Shown here: piece by piece, positions 959-32,246 of the stretch
Position numbering within the stretch: position 1 is the first letter of the stretch
Layout of the letters: every line of letters starts with the position of its first letter
The notes under the pieces: generated by a model
Database searches by the model: none
What the model was told of the DNA's origin: nothing
The model's input: only the letters and a program-made list of their open reading frames with translations
Made by a program: the position numbers and the translations under genes
Source: Candidatus Cloacimonadota bacterium
Lineage (GTDB): Bacteria > Cloacimonadota > Cloacimonadia > Cloacimonadales > Cloacimonadaceae
Reading direction: 5' to 3'
NCBI GenBank assembly: GCA_022711455.1
Contig: JAKLEY010000003.1
Location: 1-37,199, forward strand
Length of the DNA: 37,199 bases

Positions 959-1079
959 AGATCAGAGCTTGCTGCCGGGATGCAGGCACGCTTCAGGCAC
1001 GCCTCAGGCACGCTCCGGGCACAACCGTGCCTGAAGCATGCCTGCAGCTTGCCGGGAGGGTGCCTGATGGACATCAGGC
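959..1079. repeat. Degenerate 11-bp tandem array with internal strand switch
   Basis: From the stop codon of the upstream gene the sequence can be cut into successive 11-mers without a gap. Three units contain CAGGCACGC (981-991, 992-1002, 1003-1013), a fourth contains GGGCAC, and the next ones contain the reverse complement GTGCCTG or a close variant (1025-1035, 1036-1046, 1058-1068). Units 970-980 and 1047-1057 share TGCCGGGA. One result is a 20-bp inverted repeat, 982-1001 against 1026-1045, with a single mismatch. The same 11-bp phasing with different words recurs at 8811-8917 and 31861-32003. The function is unknown; the hairpin could end transcription of the upstream gene, although no T-run follows. 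Confidence 0.75.
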
Positions 1080-8647: not shown

Positions 8648-8730
8648 ACCACGAATTTACACGAATTGACACGAATAATAAGTAGCGATTCATCTGGACT
8701 ATTTCGTGAAAGTTCGTGAAGATTCGTGGT
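8648..8730. repeat. Inverted-repeat element built from CACGAA words
   Basis: The left arm (8648-8676) contains ACCACGAAT, CACGAAT and CACGAAT spaced about 10-11 bases apart. The right arm (8702-8730) contains TTCGTG, TTCGTG and ATTCGTGGT in mirror order, matching the left arm at about 22 of 29 positions. I recall the general pattern ACCACGAATT...AATTCGTGGT as a widespread intergenic repeat in many environmental bacteria. A run of seven T residues follows at about 8739-8745. Confidence 0.65.
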
Positions 8731-8768: not shown

Positions 8769-8810
8769 GGGGAAAAGAAACTTGAGGTCTTGCCTGTGAT
8801 CATAGCCCTG

Positions 8811-8917
8811 TCTAACCGCTATCTAACCGCTTGCTGACCGCTTGCAAACCGCTTCGGCAACCGAGCTGACAGGGAGATGACAAGGAGATGAGAGCGGCAA
8901 GCAAGCAAGGAGTTCAC
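8811..8917. repeat. Degenerate 11-bp tandem array running into the kinase start
   Basis: Successive 11-mers from 8811 share ACCGCT at the same phase in four units (8811-8821, 8822-8832, 8833-8843, 8844-8854). Units built on ACCGAG, ACAGGGAG, ACAAGGAG and AGAGCGG follow, so the C-rich half turns into a G-rich half. The phase continues through the Shine-Dalgarno AAGGAG (8907-8912) up to the GTG start of the kinase at 8918. The ribosome-binding site of that gene is therefore made from array sequence. The layout is the same as the arrays at 959-1079 and 31861-32003. Confidence 0.7.
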
Positions 8918-9819: not shown

Positions 9820-10488
9820 ATGACTGGAAGAAATACGATAAATCCGGGTGAGCCAAGGTATTCATACATTTCTCGTAATCTCCCGCATAAGTTCTCCCCG
9901 GACAGAGCCGTTTTTATCACCTACCGGGTGAAATTCACACTTCCAGCCATAGTAGTGACAGAGTTAAACCAAAGAAAAACCGAATGGTATCAAAAGCTAC
10001 AAACAATCGCAGAGAGCGAAAAAGCGGAATATCTCCGAACAAAAGACGCAAGAGTCTTTCTTTGGTTTGATGAGCTTATCAGCAAGGCAGACGGTGTTCC
10101 TAAAACACTTCAGAGAAAAGACATTACAGATATCATTGCAGATTCCTTCAGACATTTTGATGGTTTGCGTTATCATCTTCTGGCATATTGCATTATGCCA
10201 AATCACGTTCATGTATTGATTGATCCTGCAATCCATGAGGATGGTGATATATACCCGATCTCACACGTGACCTATACCTGGAAGAGGTTCACTGCCACAG
10301 CAATAAACAGGGTACTCACAAAAAGTGGTAGTTTTTGGCAGCAGGAATCTTATGATCATTTGATCAGGGATGCTGACGAATTTGACCGGGTGCTGGGATA
10401 TCTGATCGATAACCCTGTTAAAGCAGGACTGGTGAATGATTGGACAGAATGGTCCGGAACGTGGGTGAGAGCTGATCTGTCAAGGTAG
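9820..10488 (+). CDS. REP-associated tyrosine transposase (RAYT, Y1/TnpA-REP family)
   Basis: A 222-residue single-strand DNA endonuclease of the HUH class. The metal-binding HUH motif is MPNHVHVLI (His129, His131), and the probable catalytic tyrosine is Tyr194 in GYLIDNPVKAGLV, both standard for the family. AAGGAG precedes the ATG at 9820. The gene is flanked by GTAG-footed REP hairpins, an inverted pair at 9735-9806 and an array at 10485-10741, which are the expected substrates. Its stop codon TAG (10486-10488) is itself the last three bases of a GTAG foot. By analogy with E. coli TnpA-REP it would cut and rejoin REP DNA, and so could spread the related hairpin at 32247-32270. Confidence 0.92.
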   Translation: MTGRNTINPGEPRYSYISRNLPHKFSPDRAVFITYRVKFTLPAIVVTELNQRKTEWYQKLQTIAESEKAEYLRTKDARVFLWFDELISKADGVPKTLQRKDITDIIADSFRHFDGLRYHLLAYCIMPNHVHVLIDPAIHEDGDIYPISHVTYTWKRFTATAINRVLTKSGSFWQQESYDHLIRDADEFDRVLGYLIDNPVKAGLVNDWTEWSGTWVRADLSR

Positions 10489-10741
10489 AGCAGCATGCCA
10501 ATGCTGCTGAACTGTATAGCCCAGCAGGATCGGCATCCTGCTCTACCCAATGCTGCTGAACTGTATAGCTTAGCAGGATCGGCATCCTGCTCTACCCAAT
10601 GCTGCTGAACTATGTAGCCCAGCAGGATCGGCATCCTGCTCTACCCAATGCTGCTGAACTGTGTTGTAGAGCAGCATACCGATGCTGCTGAACTGAGATG
10701 CATAGCAGGATCGGCATCCTGCTCTACCCAATGCTGCTGTT
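10485..10741. repeat. REP array downstream of RAYT (49-bp units)
   Basis: It begins with GTAGAGCAGCATG at 10485, followed by three almost identical 49-bp units (10498-10546, 10547-10595, 10596-10644). A longer fourth unit (10645-10727) contains an extra GTAG-footed hairpin, and a partial fifth unit ends near 10741. Each unit holds a half-palindrome AATGCTGCTGAACT and a full hairpin GCAGGAT-CGGC-ATCCTGC ending in TCTAC. The units abut without unique spacers. The short units look as if they arose by loss of the left foot at each junction (CTAC directly joined to CCAATGCTGC), through either slippage or RAYT cutting. Confidence 0.85.
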
Positions 10742-10914: not shown

Positions 10915-13035
10915 ATGAAGCATTCGCGCAAACCGTGCCTGTTGCTGGCAATGTGTTTCCTGACAGGATTAATGTGGGCAAATTACAGTCTGCTCAACCT
11001 GAATTTACCGGGAGTCTATGCCGGTCCTACTCAATTCGCGGATTACGATTCCGATGGAGATCTGGATTTCATCCTCACCGGTTCGACCCTTGAATCCGGC
11101 TATGGCATAGCCAGGCTTTACACCAATAACGGCAATGGCCAGTTCACCCTGAATCCCCAACCCTTTACAGGAGTCTTCAGAGGCTCTGTGGACTGGGGTG
11201 ACTACAACAACGACAGCTATCCCGATTTGGTGATCTCGGGCTGGGCAACTGGAGGGGTAAACGTCACCAAGCTCTACCGCAATCTGGGGAATGGCAATTT
11301 TGAGCTGATCAATGCCGGATTTATCGGAGTGAACTATTCTTCTGTGGAATGGGCTGATTACAATCTGGACGGCTGGCTGGATCTTCTGGTTGCAGGAGCC
11401 AATGACGCGGGAATCTTCAGCAAGATCTATCGCAACAACCAAAACGGCACCTTTACTGATATCAACGCAAATCTCCGTCCGATCAGCTATGGCACAGCTT
11501 CCTGGGGTGATTTTGATAACGACGGAGATCCTGATATTGTCTTCCTGGGCAGCAATCACACAGAGGTCTATGAAAATCTGGGAGACGATGTGTTTGTCGA
11601 CATCGAAGCAGGTTTGCTGCCTCTCTATTACGGGGCTGCGGCTTGGGGCGATTATGATAATGACGGCTATCTGGATCTGGTTTGTCAGGGCATGAATGAA
11701 GACGGATATTTTACCAAACTCTATCGCAACAACCGGGCGGGAGGCTTTGAAGACGTTCCGCACCGCATGCAGAGTGTGTTTGGAGGATCCGTGGCCTGGG
11801 GTGATTACAACTCTGACGGCAAACCTGATATCCTGCTGACCGGATACTTCAACGGAAACAGGATCACAAAGATCTACCGCAACGATAATTGGGGAATTTT
11901 TGTGGATACCGGAGATGTCTTTCCTGCTCTGAGCAGTTCCTGGGGCAGCTGGGCAGATTATGACAATGATGGAAAGCTGGATATTCTGCTCACCGGTTTC
12001 GATGGTTCCGACGGAGTCGGATACCACAGCAAACTTTACAAAAACAACTATTCTTTTGTGAACACAAATCCCGGCCCCCCTGTGCTGGTCTATGATCAAG
12101 CCTCTGCTTCCTTCCAGTTTTCGGGGGCAAGTGATCTCAGCACACCCTATGCGGGCTTGACCTATGATCTCAGGATCGGAACCAGCCCGGGAGCCTGTGA
12201 TATCAGCTCACCCCTTGCCCATCCGGATGGCAGAAGGAAGACGGAGAGCAGGGGCAGGAAAGCGATCGCCTTCGATCCTCAGCCGGGAGTGCTCTATTAT
12301 GCTGCAGCTCAAACGGTTGACCAGGGTTTTGCCCGATCCGTGTTCTCCCCGGAGATCAGCTTCGGCACTGGGGGAACTCCCCTGATCTCAGTGATCGGCA
12401 GCATGGATTTTGGCTCGGTCTATCTGGAGCATCACACGCATCAGGACCTGATCCTGGCAAATCCGGGGACGGGTACTCTGAGCATTGAATCCGTTGCTTT
12501 GAGCTCCGGGCTCAGTTTTCAGATCGAAGCTCAGACCTATCCCCAGCATTTAAACGGAGGAGCCACCTGGAGCCTGAGGGTCACTTTCAGCCCCTTGGCA
12601 AACGGCTTGGTGGCAGATACACTCGTGATCCAGAGTAACGCTCAGAACAGTCCTGTCCTGCGAGTTCCGGTTGGCGGAAGAGGGGTTTCAGCTCCTCCTT
12701 CCCAGGTGCAAAACCTGAATGTGCTTCATCAGGGCAATGATGCCCTGCTCAGCTGGGATCCTGTGACCACCACAACAGCCGGGGACCCCATCACCCCCAG
12801 CCTCTATCTGGTGCTGATCAACGAAATTCCCAATGATTTGGAGCATTTCTGGTTCCTGGCAGCCACTCCGAACACCTCCCATCTGCATCCTTCCGTATTC
12901 CAGTTTAGCCCCAATATGTTCTATCAGGTGAGAGCCGTGGTGCTCTACGACGATGAACAGCAGAGTATGCTAAAGAACCTGGAGCAGAGTGGAGTACGCC
13001 TGGATTGGGCAAGCCTGAAAGAGATGATGGAATAA
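10915..13035 (+). CDS. Secreted VCBS/FG-GAP repeat protein with choice-of-anchor-D and fibronectin-like domains
   Basis: A 706-residue exported protein. A signal peptide covers about residues 1-23 (basic MKHSRK, then hydrophobic). Residues from about 40 to 380 hold seven VCBS/FG-GAP-type repeats of the form [AG]D-[YF]-[DN]-x-D-G-x-x-D-[IL], putative calcium-binding blades of a beta-propeller. After a linker comes a region containing NPGTGTLSIESV (choice-of-anchor-D/HYDIN-like Ig fold), then a fibronectin type III-like module starting near PSQVQNLNV. No C-terminal sorting tail or membrane anchor is seen; the end, LKEMME, is plain. The role is unknown; surface adhesion or glycan binding is typical of the domains. 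The chosen ATG (10915) is the one that opens the signal peptide. Confidence 0.8.
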   Translation: MKHSRKPCLLLAMCFLTGLMWANYSLLNLNLPGVYAGPTQFADYDSDGDLDFILTGSTLESGYGIARLYTNNGNGQFTLNPQPFTGVFRGSVDWGDYNNDSYPDLVISGWATGGVNVTKLYRNLGNGNFELINAGFIGVNYSSVEWADYNLDGWLDLLVAGANDAGIFSKIYRNNQNGTFTDINANLRPISYGTASWGDFDNDGDPDIVFLGSNHTEVYENLGDDVFVDIEAGLLPLYYGAAAWGDYDNDGYLDLVCQGMNEDGYFTKLYRNNRAGGFEDVPHRMQSVFGGSVAWGDYNSDGKPDILLTGYFNGNRITKIYRNDNWGIFVDTGDVFPALSSSWGSWADYDNDGKLDILLTGFDGSDGVGYHSKLYKNNYSFVNTNPGPPVLVYDQASASFQFSGASDLSTPYAGLTYDLRIGTSPGACDISSPLAHPDGRRKTESRGRKAIAFDPQPGVLYYAAAQTVDQGFARSVFSPEISFGTGGTPLISVIGSMDFGSVYLEHHTHQDLILANPGTGTLSIESVALSSGLSFQIEAQTYPQHLNGGATWSLRVTFSPLANGLVADTLVIQSNAQNSPVLRVPVGGRGVSAPPSQVQNLNVLHQGNDALLSWDPVTTTTAGDPITPSLYLVLINEIPNDLEHFWFLAATPNTSHLHPSVFQFSPNMFYQVRAVVLYDDEQQSMLKNLEQSGVRLDWASLKEMME

Positions 13036-13076
13036 TTTAAGAATTAATATTTAAGATTTAAGATTTAAGAATTAAG
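13035..13076. repeat. 7-bp tandem array at the stop codon of the VCBS gene
   Basis: Six heptamers of the form A(A/T)TTAA(G/T) follow each other without gaps, starting on the last base of the TAA stop. The array is followed by CAGCG, exactly as at 31774-31813. The 7-bp period places TAA in all three frames, and because TTAA is palindromic the same holds on the other strand. Confidence 0.75.
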
Positions 13077-13084
13077 CAGCGGTA

Positions 13085-13195
13085 TCGCTGGAGTTGTGGC
13101 CGCCTTACTATTTTTGTAAAAGCTCCGTAGTCTACCTCCTATAAATACAACTCGTGAATCCAACGAATCTTTGAGGGCGGCCTCGACTTCGGCCC
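13085..13195 (+). repeat. MITE-like element, copy 1 (diverged)
   Basis: Shares TCGCTGGAGTTGTGG at its left end and CCTCGACTTC-GGCCC at its right end with the copies at 13265-13379 (reverse) and 32042-32154. The internal landmarks TTGTAAA, GTCTACCT and ATACAACTCGTGAAT line up with CTTGTAA, TCTATCTG and ACTTGTAAT of copy 3. No protein is encoded. Copies 1 and 2 are tail to tail, sharing an A+T-rich centre at about 13205-13250. Confidence 0.65.
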
Positions 13196-13264
13196 TTAGG
13201 GGGGTTGCAGTAATTTTATAGAAGATAATGCTTTAGCTATCTATTCGTTGGTGATGTGACGCGT

Positions 13265-13379
13265 GTGGGCTGGAGTCGAGGACACGGTTGAAGCCTGCAG
13301 CGTGATTACAGGTATACATTTCACAGATAGACTTCAAATCGATTACAAGTCCGGTTAACGCGTCCACAAACCAGCGAGA
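13265..13379 (-). repeat. MITE-like element, copy 2 (reverse orientation)
   Basis: Its reverse complement closely follows the copy at 32042-32154: a start with TCGCTGG, then GTGGACGCGTTAAC, GACTTGTAA, GTCTATCTG, CTGTAATC, TTCAACCGTGTCCTCGACT and CAGCCCAC. The ends of one copy are imperfect inverted repeats of each other, about 20 bp, which is why I call it MITE-like. A conserved tail, GATAGCTAA followed by TATCTTCT, extends the similarity beyond CAGCCCAC to about 13213. Confidence 0.7.
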
Positions 13380-13384
13380 CCAAT

Positions 13385-13463
13385 GTACAGGCGGTCGCCG
13401 TACCGCCTATGTCAATAATTTTCAGCGTACTCATGAGACCGGCGCTACGGCGAGCGCCGGTAC
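13385..13463. repeat. Inverted pair of GTAC-footed REP-like hairpins
   Basis: GTAC followed by AGGCGGT-loop-ACCGCCT (13385-13408) and ACCGGCGCT-loop-AGCGCCGGT followed by AC, giving a GTAC foot (13438-13463), face each other. A third member, CAGGCGCT-GCTGCG-AGCGCCTG followed by TAC, lies at 32306-32330. The loop CGCCGT/ACGGCG is conserved between the two here. This is a second hairpin family, different from the GTAG-footed one next to the RAYT gene. Confidence 0.7.
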
Positions 13464-13490
13464 ACTCCACAACTCCGCGATACCAAGCCC

Positions 13491-30291: not shown

Positions 30292-31793
30292 AGAAATTTG
30301 CTTTCCTGTTGTTTGCGTCGCTGGCTCTGCTCAGCCTTTCCGCGATCCCGCTCCGGATCCACTATACAAATGACACTCACGGTGCTTCCCTGCCCCTGAA
30401 ATATGACAGCGAACAGGGTCCTGTCCTCCTGGGAGGATATCCTGCTCTGGAATACCACCTGAATCAAAGCCGCAAGCAAGCGCGACGCAGCCTCTATCTG
30501 GACGCCGGGGATCAGCAGACCGGAACTGCTTTTGCCGCAGAAGTTTATAAGGGCGCGACCGGGGGAGCTGTGATCGAGGTCTTTAACAAACTGAAGCTCG
30601 ATGCATCCACCTTTGGCAACCACGAATTTGACCAGAAACCCGCCAATCTCAAGCGATTGATGAAACGCGCCAAATACCCCTTTATCTCCACAAACCTGTT
30701 GGATAAAAAGACCGGTAAAAGCTTTGGAGACAAGCCTTACCAGATCATCAAACTGGATTCCTTAAAGGTCGGGATCCTGGGGCTCACCCTCACCGAACTG
30801 CCTGAAAAAGTGTCCATCTCAAACGTGGCAGGACTGGATATTCTCGATTACAAAACAGCTCTGGAAGCCCATTTGGACAAGCTGGACGGTGCCACAGACC
30901 TGATCGTCATCCTCTCCCATCTGGGCAGGGAGGCAGACAGCCTGCTTGCCACTCAGCTGGATAGCAGAGTCGATCTCATAATCGGGGGACACTCCCACGA
31001 TTGGCTGCCCCAACCTCTTTTGGTGAACGGCATCTATATCTGTCAGGCTGCTTCCCGTCTGGCTCTGCTGGGTTCCCTTGATCTGGAAGTGGAAAACGAC
31101 CGCATCAGCAGAGCGCAAAACCGACTGATCCAGCTGACTTCTGCACCGGAGGGATATTCCAGTAAGCTAGCGAGTTTTGTGGAATCTCAGGAAAAAGGGA
31201 TCACAGCCCGTCTGGACACAGTGATAGCCAAAATTCCCGAGGACTGGATGCCCGATAAATTCACCGAAACTCCCCTCTCGATCTGGATGGCGAGAGCTTT
31301 AAAAGCGGAATATCAGGCAAAATACAAACCCGATCTGGCCATTGTCAACAACGGCGGCTTCCGCAAAAACCTCAAAGCCGGGGAGATCAGCCTGCGTGAC
31401 ATGCAGGAGATGCTGCCCTTCAACAACAACGTGGTGATCTTCACAGCCAGCGGAGAGGATATTATCAGATTCTTTGAGCTCAACGAAGAGCACCGCGTCA
31501 CCAAACCCTACGACATCTGCACCACCAGTGCCGCGGGCTGGATCCATCATTATTGCAAGGCCATGGATCACGAAGGGCATCATCACCGTGATTCCGAGCT
31601 CGATCTGGGCCACGTCATCATGGATCCCAAACAGGACTATCGCGTTGTCTCGCATGATTATATCAGCGGGCAATGGCAAAAATACCTCGGCTTTGAACCC
31701 CGGAACCTGATCCAAACCAATGAACTCATCCTCGATGCCATGATCAGGCAGGTGACTAAACAATACCCTGTTGAATTAATAATTAATAATTAA
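30288..31793 (+). CDS. Exported 5'-nucleotidase/UshA-family metallophosphoesterase
   Basis: A 501-residue protein with a signal peptide (1-19), so probably periplasmic. The metallophosphoesterase domain has NDTHG (28-32), DAGDQQTG, GNHEFD, LSHLG and GGHSHD. The 5'-nucleotidase C-terminal domain has NNGGFR and MLPFNNNVV. It would remove phosphate from nucleotides or sugar nucleotides. A histidine-rich stretch, HEGHHHRDSE, lies in the C-terminal domain. The last residues (LIINN) and the stop are read from a 7-bp tandem array. It is the last gene of the operon. Confidence 0.88.
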   Translation: MKKFAFLLFASLALLSLSAIPLRIHYTNDTHGASLPLKYDSEQGPVLLGGYPALEYHLNQSRKQARRSLYLDAGDQQTGTAFAAEVYKGATGGAVIEVFNKLKLDASTFGNHEFDQKPANLKRLMKRAKYPFISTNLLDKKTGKSFGDKPYQIIKLDSLKVGILGLTLTELPEKVSISNVAGLDILDYKTALEAHLDKLDGATDLIVILSHLGREADSLLATQLDSRVDLIIGGHSHDWLPQPLLVNGIYICQAASRLALLGSLDLEVENDRISRAQNRLIQLTSAPEGYSSKLASFVESQEKGITARLDTVIAKIPEDWMPDKFTETPLSIWMARALKAEYQAKYKPDLAIVNNGGFRKNLKAGEISLRDMQEMLPFNNNVVIFTASGEDIIRFFELNEEHRVTKPYDICTTSAAGWIHHYCKAMDHEGHHHRDSELDLGHVIMDPKQDYRVVSHDYISGQWQKYLGFEPRNLIQTNELILDAMIRQVTKQYPVELIINN

Positions 31794-31808
31794 TAATTAA
31801 GAATTAAG
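31774..31808. repeat. 7-bp tandem array at the 3' end of the nucleotidase gene
   Basis: Five heptamers, AATTAAT three times and AATTAAG twice, are followed by CAGCG. The TAA stop of the nucleotidase (31791-31793) lies in the third unit. The end AATTAAGCAGCG is identical to that of the array at 13035-13081. Confidence 0.75.
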
Positions 31809-31860: not shown

Positions 31861-32003
31861 CTACTGCCCCTCTGCTGACCACTGCTCTGAACACCAGCTG
31901 TCACTCCCCTGCCTTCTCCCTGTCATCCCCCTTGCTGAAGCGGTTTGAAAGCGGTTAGCAAGCGGTATGATACCGATATGACAGCGATATGATCAGCAGA
32001 GGC
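31861..32003. repeat. Degenerate 11-bp tandem array
   Basis: Thirteen consecutive 11-mers can be cut from 31861. The second half is plainest: AAGCGGTTTGA, AAGCGGTTAGC, AAGCGGTATGA, TACCGATATGA, CAGCGATATGA. The first half is C-rich (for example CTGCTGACCAC, CTCCCTGTCAT) and the second G-rich on the same strand. It resembles the arrays at 959-1079 and 8811-8917 in period and in the change of strand bias, though the words differ. The gene-free gap 31794-32412 also holds the hairpins and MITE-like copy listed next. Confidence 0.7.
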
Positions 32004-32034: not shown

Positions 32035-32041
32035 ATTGGGG

Positions 32042-32154
32042 TCGCTGGAGTTGTGGACGCGTTAACAAGACTTGTAAGACGCTGGAATCTATCTGCTGTA
32101 TTTAAACTTGTAATCGCACTGAAGATTTGAACCGCGTCCTCGACTTCAGCCCAC
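32042..32154 (+). repeat. MITE-like element, copy 3
   Basis: The best-formed copy. Its left end GCTGGAGTTGTGGACGCGTT and right end ACCGCGTCCTCGACTTCAGC are imperfect inverted repeats, about 16 matches. ACTTGTAA occurs twice inside. Similarity to copy 2 (13265-13379, reversed) continues beyond CAGCCCAC into GATAGCTAA and TATTTTCT to about 32197. There is no coding potential of note. Confidence 0.7.
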
Positions 32155-32246
32155 GCAAAGCTAATCAACCTTGAGAAGATAGCTAAGATATTTTCTCCAC
32201 TCGGTTTATACCGCAATTCGATGGCTGAGCTGATGGTATTGATCTC

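Follow-up and report, generated by a model that had tools for sequence, protein, structure and literature searches.

The window analysed here, a 37,199-nt stretch of a fragmented 2.24-Mb assembly (the own genome, G000), carries at its start two co-directional plus-strand genes. They encode an AMP-binding enzyme (2-958, partial at the window edge; PF00501, PF13193) and a class II aldolase/adducin-domain protein (1144-1830; PF00596). The 185-bp intergenic gap that separates them holds an array of 11-bp units with degenerate ends, delimited at 959-1079 in an earlier, sequence-only reading and called F1 below. Its left arm (983-1022, plus strand) consists of the four units CAGGCACGCTT, CAGGCACGCCT, CAGGCACGCTC and CGGGCAC, with CAGGCAC starting at 983, 994 and 1005 and CGGGCAC at 1016. 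A centre of symmetry, AACC (1023-1026), which is kept in most of 30 copies of the element, is followed by the right arm (1027-1066, minus strand), where inverted units succeed one another in 11-bp steps as GTGCCTG (1027), ATGCCTG (1038), TTGCCGG (1049) and GTGCCTG (1060). The 30 copies, centred on the symmetry point, give the consensus (CAGGCAYGCnn)n-CAGGCAC-AACC-GTGCCTG-(nAGCRTGCCTG)n. The best 55-bp stretch of the gap contains 40 matches at lag 11, whereas 5,000 dinucleotide shuffles of the gap averaged 19.0 and reached at most 30; at the other lags from 7 to 15 the gap gave no more than 25 matches per 55 bp.

The sequence-only reading had placed a word in each of eleven successive 11-mers. 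This is true of eight of them and fails for the first, the second and the last, the second (970-980) carrying merely the related CTGCCGG. The words of both strands do occupy one position within the 11-mer, as had been claimed, with the same offset in all eight word-bearing units. The further claim that such an in-phase switch of strand goes beyond an ordinary inverted repeat or hairpin is not supported: the array is an inverted repeat and is also able to fold. Its centre AACC has the same length, 4 bp, as the spacer within each 7+4 unit, so that the arms fall into the same phase and the switch of strand simply follows from the inverted symmetry about that centre. The centre differs in other families and leaves their arms out of step (about half a unit in family B of G002, a genome of the same genus), so that the common offset is not a general property; what is general across families is the 11-bp step. 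The description of a presumed binder as indifferent to orientation was likewise too loose, for within each arm the units share one direction.

The AMP-binding and aldolase genes adjoin one another in seven related genomes (G001, G002, G003, G004, G006, G008 and G010), where they overlap or are up to ~150 bp apart, and no 11-bp element lies between them. It is thus likely that the window's own lineage acquired this copy, at a junction too diverged from the seven element-free pairs to define an insertion site or a target-site duplication. Such a gain speaks for the main alternative to the reading preferred below, in which these are MITE-like non-autonomous elements, with terminal inverted repeats as ends and transposase-binding sites as words, target immunity producing their spacing and local hopping their regional distribution. 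We consider this origin possible but doubtful. Between G000 and G002, which share little synteny, 23 gaps were comparable for element position. One convergent gene pair has an F1 element in G000 (L007 1059-1280) and a C-like together with a D-like element in G002 (L162 3409-3775), which may mean that the site was kept while its words changed.

When the gap was searched by blastn in the own 2.24-Mb assembly, the F1 element, ~100 bp long, was located at about 30 loci. Two further 11-bp-period loci noticed earlier in the window are real, and both belong to one second family, F2, in opposite orientations (8790-8909, plus strand; 31894-32000, minus strand). The first of them reads CCCTGTC(TAACCGCTATC)(TAACCGCTTGC)(TGACCGCTTGC)AAACCGCTTC...GAGATGACA. 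F2 occurs in G000 at no fewer than 40 loci among the matches listed and at 43 or more with profile matches added. Directly beside the F2 element at 8790-8909 lie CACGAATTGA units with a 10-bp period and, after them, TTCGTGAAAA units in inverted orientation (8650-8728). The window also has 7-bp repeats of AATTAAG/AATTAAT near gene ends (13035-13076 and 31774-31807), which are found beside elements at L006 and L011 as well.

The periodicity extends far outside the window. In the genome-wide lag-11 test proposed in the sequence-only reading, applied to 420 kb of G000, 27 intergenic stretches reached 33 matches in 55 at lag 11 and shuffled sequence gave none; at this threshold other lags produced at most 7 stretches, and coding DNA one at lag 11. 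The same excess, carried by unrelated words, was obtained in G002, with 26 strong lag-11 stretches in 400 kb against 0 in shuffles. In 1.2 Mb of this genome 116 elements were detected. When defined by lag alone, they form the large families C (49), A (36) and B (20) besides small ones; some counts for family A take both strands of one palindrome, its independent copies numbering ~37. Genes were called by a simple ORF rule and families were defined from our own seeds. An element comprises some 8-10 words in inverted arms, with a fixed 11-bp step and a fixed length of ~110 bp. Family A elements are palindromes, whereas those of family C are non-palindromic and gapless, ~113 bp long and with a fixed number of units. 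At composite sites of G002 (L079 13560-13800; L081 5905-6115; L088 6260-6490; L087 285-515) a family C element stands ~110-130 bp from a smaller element of GGGAGAATCG or GGATTCACAGG words.

Similar arrays with further words are present in samples of G001, G003, G006, G009, G010 and G011. Those of G003 include near-perfect palindromes of ACCTTAGTATA units with CCTCC...GGAGG ends (L099 6314-6457 and 15104-15243; L135 3056-3203), unlike the imperfect arms of F1. No such arrays were seen in samples of G004, G005, G007 and G012 or in those of most of the order's other families, where absence weighs little because each sample covered 7-60 kb. That small samples from several genera of the same taxonomic family showed none tells somewhat against the region-marking reading preferred below. 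The F1 words were not found in 20 relatives, and the exact core pattern had two matches among ~85,000 genomes, about the number expected by chance, in a search that possibly omitted the closest records to the own genome. The open-access literature searched yielded no account of elements of this kind. Judged by membership tests and that literature only, the ~110-bp intergenic 11-bp-phased elements are a previously unnamed class.

The copies of these elements are on average 63-77% alike and almost free of indels: under an identical seed-and-iterate procedure we counted 0.004 indels per substitution in C, 0.001 in B and 0 in both A and F1, whereas three dispersed repeats of G000 that served as controls gave 0.07, 0.30 and 0.15. 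The value of 0.05 first obtained for F2 was mostly due to paired 1-nt artefacts of opposite-strand alignments, and the sole longer insertion in this family is exactly 11 bp, that is, one unit. The window also contains a dispersed repeat of ~114 bp (CTGGAGTTGTGGACGCGTT...; 13080-13480 and 32035-32160) that diverges in the ordinary, indel-rich manner and corresponds to control R1.

The exact 11-bp insertion and the presence of arms made of near-identical units would be compatible with a functionless by-product of mutation, in which 11-bp tandem duplication is combined with palindrome correction. Against it stand the fixed unit number of each family, words that are common to tens of distant loci, and the patterned regions and spacing described below, which together leave this explanation the most improbable of those weighed here. 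A tandem repeat of the slippage type was rejected on similar grounds, namely the fixed unit number and the words shared by separate loci.

A different possibility is that the elements act as hairpins, either in RNA or as cruciforms, in the manner of terminators, stabilisers or REP-like stems. The window copy can fold strongly and the G003 elements are almost perfect palindromes. However, the F1 arms showed no covariation among 30 copies, in family A three of four units match less well between the two arms of one copy than between different copies, and family C has no consensus fold; a hairpin or RNA identity was rejected for these reasons. Rfam gave no match. Some copies adjoin a terminator, but few by a strict scan (4 of 47), and several elements lie beyond a separate one. 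Pairing at the RNA or cruciform level is very unlikely to be what is maintained. Because indels are nearly absent, the arms do not covary and family C does not fold, the constraint appears to act on DNA with a rigid phase. This points to the phase itself and would suit a protein whose protomers bind cooperatively at every turn of the helix. Same-face cooperative binding at the DNA level, put forward in the sequence-only reading, thus remains the best fit: the words are kept while the spacers between them vary, there are hardly any indels, covariation between arms is lacking, and the lag-11 signal is strong genome-wide.

The degree of likeness among copies bears on the MITE-like origin as well. 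Nearest-neighbour identity in C, A, F1 and F2 slightly exceeds an independent-column null, and near-identical pairs are absent from these four families; the best copy pair is 83-92% alike in C, A and B. Two of the control repeats, R2 and R3, have median nearest-neighbour identities of 0.96 and 0.91. Most families thus bear no sign of recent copying. Family B has some relatives closer than its null, and G011 has copies with identical 22-mers, compatible with recent spread; both observations weigh against the reading preferred below, and the second favours mobility, as do the dispersed, intergenic and high-copy occurrence of the elements and an end motif of about CTTCCYnnTTGAT, which by eye is common to the consensus sequences of five families (F1, F2, A, B and C) in two species. 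These shared ends look like terminal inverted repeats, or else like outer units of the array. Mobility is harder to reconcile with the fact that no two copies within C, A, F1 or F2 are nearly identical, and with the scarcity of truncated copies and of indels even at about 65% likeness, unlike other repeats of the genome. Profile searches in G002 returned nearly all matches at full length, half-elements flanking a gene were absent from 1.2 Mb of this genome, and no target-site duplication was visible by eye in the family C alignment.

The families are unevenly distributed over the chromosome. In G002, family B fills contigs C1, C11, C13 and C14, and when no mismatch is allowed it has a single copy on C2 and is missing from C8; on C1 it has about 22 sites over 249 kb among the matches listed, one-mismatch sites included. 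Family A occupies contigs C2, C5, C6 and C9, and family C contigs C3, C8, C10 and part of C2. Counting exact pattern matches only, family depends on contig (chi-square 148, 26 d.f., p = 4e-19, with many small cells), and 78 of 132 neighbours belong to the same family, compared with 43.9 +- 5.4 under label shuffling and a maximum of 67 in 20,000 shuffles. The corresponding figure in the fragmented G000 assembly is 10 of 12 (P = 0.02), and only two of its contigs, the window's included, hold both families. The domains are not sharp, because families A and C interleave on contig C2 over ~250 kb. In G011, which belongs to another genus, the single family mapped is genome-wide.

Family B may be origin-proximal, since a DnaA-box cluster lies on contig C1 and parB on C14, both filled by this family. 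The cluster (L071 8029-8157) comprises six TTATCCACA boxes within ~130 bp, partly spaced by 11 bp and with no dnaA gene beside them, and is a candidate replication origin on its sequence. Neither a dif site nor a parS consensus was found in the stretches examined, and no orientation of elements relative to GC skew was seen.

The elements also keep their distance from one another. On four G002 contigs only 3 neighbour distances are below 4 kb, compared with ~24.7 (2.4 + 11.9 + 6.2 + 4.2) expected from random placement in intergenic gaps, between-family distances being included. The exceptions are composite pairs of different families, 0.1 kb apart on contig C2 and 0.3 kb apart on C8, and one C-A pair 3.6 kb apart on C2. 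The smallest distance between elements in G000 is 7.8 kb. In G011, a single-contig chromosome with another word, none of the distances among 44 sites is below 10 kb, where a uniform, not gap-based, null predicts 7.7 (P = 5e-5). That exclusion also holds between families would suit a MITE-like origin, and regional clustering is not peculiar to sites that mark regions, for REPs can likewise cluster regionally around their transposase gene (PMC2817692).

Operator arrays of ordinary regulators, for example of the OmpR/PhoB or BldC/Xis type bound head-to-tail at about one turn, are another alternative. Their case is helped by the F2 words (CTGTCAT + 4), which recall pho boxes. Proteins that bind one-turn tandem repeats cooperatively are known (Apl and other RDFs, PMC7498355; BldC, PMC5859096). 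However, elements occupy 98 of the 225 G002 gaps of at least 150 bp and have no consistent orientation to genes, family A is found between convergent genes more often than the gap background, and neither regional partition nor spacing is expected of a regulon. We therefore regard ordinary operators as a very unlikely explanation.

The reading we prefer, with a rough probability of one half, is that the elements are region-marking protein-binding arrays that work like matS-type sites, and they may be landmarks by which a DNA-binding protein organises the chromosome. To the observed phase rigidity, word families, regional partition and spacing, this model adds a putative binding protein, its paralogues and a chromosomal function. 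A DNA-binding protein, or a few paralogues of differing specificity, would bind cooperatively along the whole array, with each helical turn taking up one protomer on a single face of the DNA, and would proceed outward both ways from the centre. Occupied sites would mark or anchor a region, serving loop anchoring, domain identity or segregation, and each region would keep its own word family at roughly one site per ~8-15 kb. Selection would act on helical phase and on the words, and not on RNA or hairpin pairing. More tentatively, the region-assigned and mutually spaced word families of phase-locked ~110-bp arrays might amount to a positional code, read by fast-diverging DNA-binding proteins that organise or segregate the chromosome. 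If the elements were mobile in origin and later domesticated, their similar ends and the gain in the window would accord with the constraint. Gene counts gave no lead to the binder: MatP (PF06303) occurs in none of 21 genomes, the control finding it in E. coli only; ParB is single-copy in G000 and its family; and HTH_17 has one copy in G000 and two in G002, the strongest carriers, versus four in G004 and three in G012, in which no elements were detected.

To our knowledge, bacterial region-marking systems are few and use one motif per region. If the region-marking model is true, the identity of chromosome domains could be read straight from sequence, the words would provide ready bait for finding the binding protein, and the rule of 11-bp phase, fixed length and spacing could be searched for in other phyla. 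Even if mobile, short elements that combine strict helical phase with near-zero indels, that exclude one another and whose families are regional would be out of the ordinary.

By the tests made, the elements belong neither to the matS and maoS systems nor to the arrays of recombination directionality factors or BldC. They resemble REP/BIME sequences in being abundant, intergenic, palindromic and species-specific. REPs are defined by a GT(A/G)G head beside a short imperfect palindrome (PMC2817692), a head that the consensus sequences of F1, F2, A, B and C all lack; the elements differ further in their ~110-bp length, their 11-bp phase and the lack of arm covariation. The window does contain what looks like a REP/RAYT pair (9820-10723), made up of an ORF whose similarity to Y1 transposases (IS200/RAYT-like) is weak and stays just under the Pfam cut-off (9820-10488) and, after it, a 49-bp-period array of GTAGAGCAG...CTGCTCTAC palindromes (10498-10723). 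A RAYT-like region of G002 (L160 15600-17400) has GTAGGTCCGTC/GTGGGTCCGTC repeats on either side and constitutes a separate REP system. Assignment of the elements to REP/RAYT was rejected, as the G002 RAYT and the RAYT-like gene of the window are flanked by GTAG-type or other repeats and not by 11-bp elements; in other genera, an 11-bp element does occur close to some of the RAYT loci.

MITE and ERIC-type elements are comparable in size (~100-130 bp), intergenic position and similar inverted ends, but the elements described here have scarcely any indels or truncations and few close copies, and they show regional families and mutual spacing. No autonomous partner was found in 1.2 Mb, the half of G002 that was read. 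The closest parallels for the proposed role are MatP/matS and the Ori macrodomain system MaoP/maoS, in which non-coding sites mark a defined region. There are 23 matS sites over the Ter macrodomain of E. coli (PMC5441646), so that matS too has several spaced sites per region, and maoS is a single site (PMC5023128). The G002 families share the regional concentration of matS. The elements differ in that each is a ~110-bp array built from 11-bp words and in that several families jointly cover much of the chromosome, and they are known from sequence alone in genomes that lack MatP. Direct repeats one helical turn apart are shared with recombination directionality factors such as Apl, which bind 10-11 bp repeats cooperatively and head-to-tail (PMC7498355), and with BldC, which binds 9 bp direct repeats in the same manner (PMC5859096). 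Those proteins act at few att or promoter sites, whereas the elements described here number in the hundreds, have inverted arms and carry words that differ by region.
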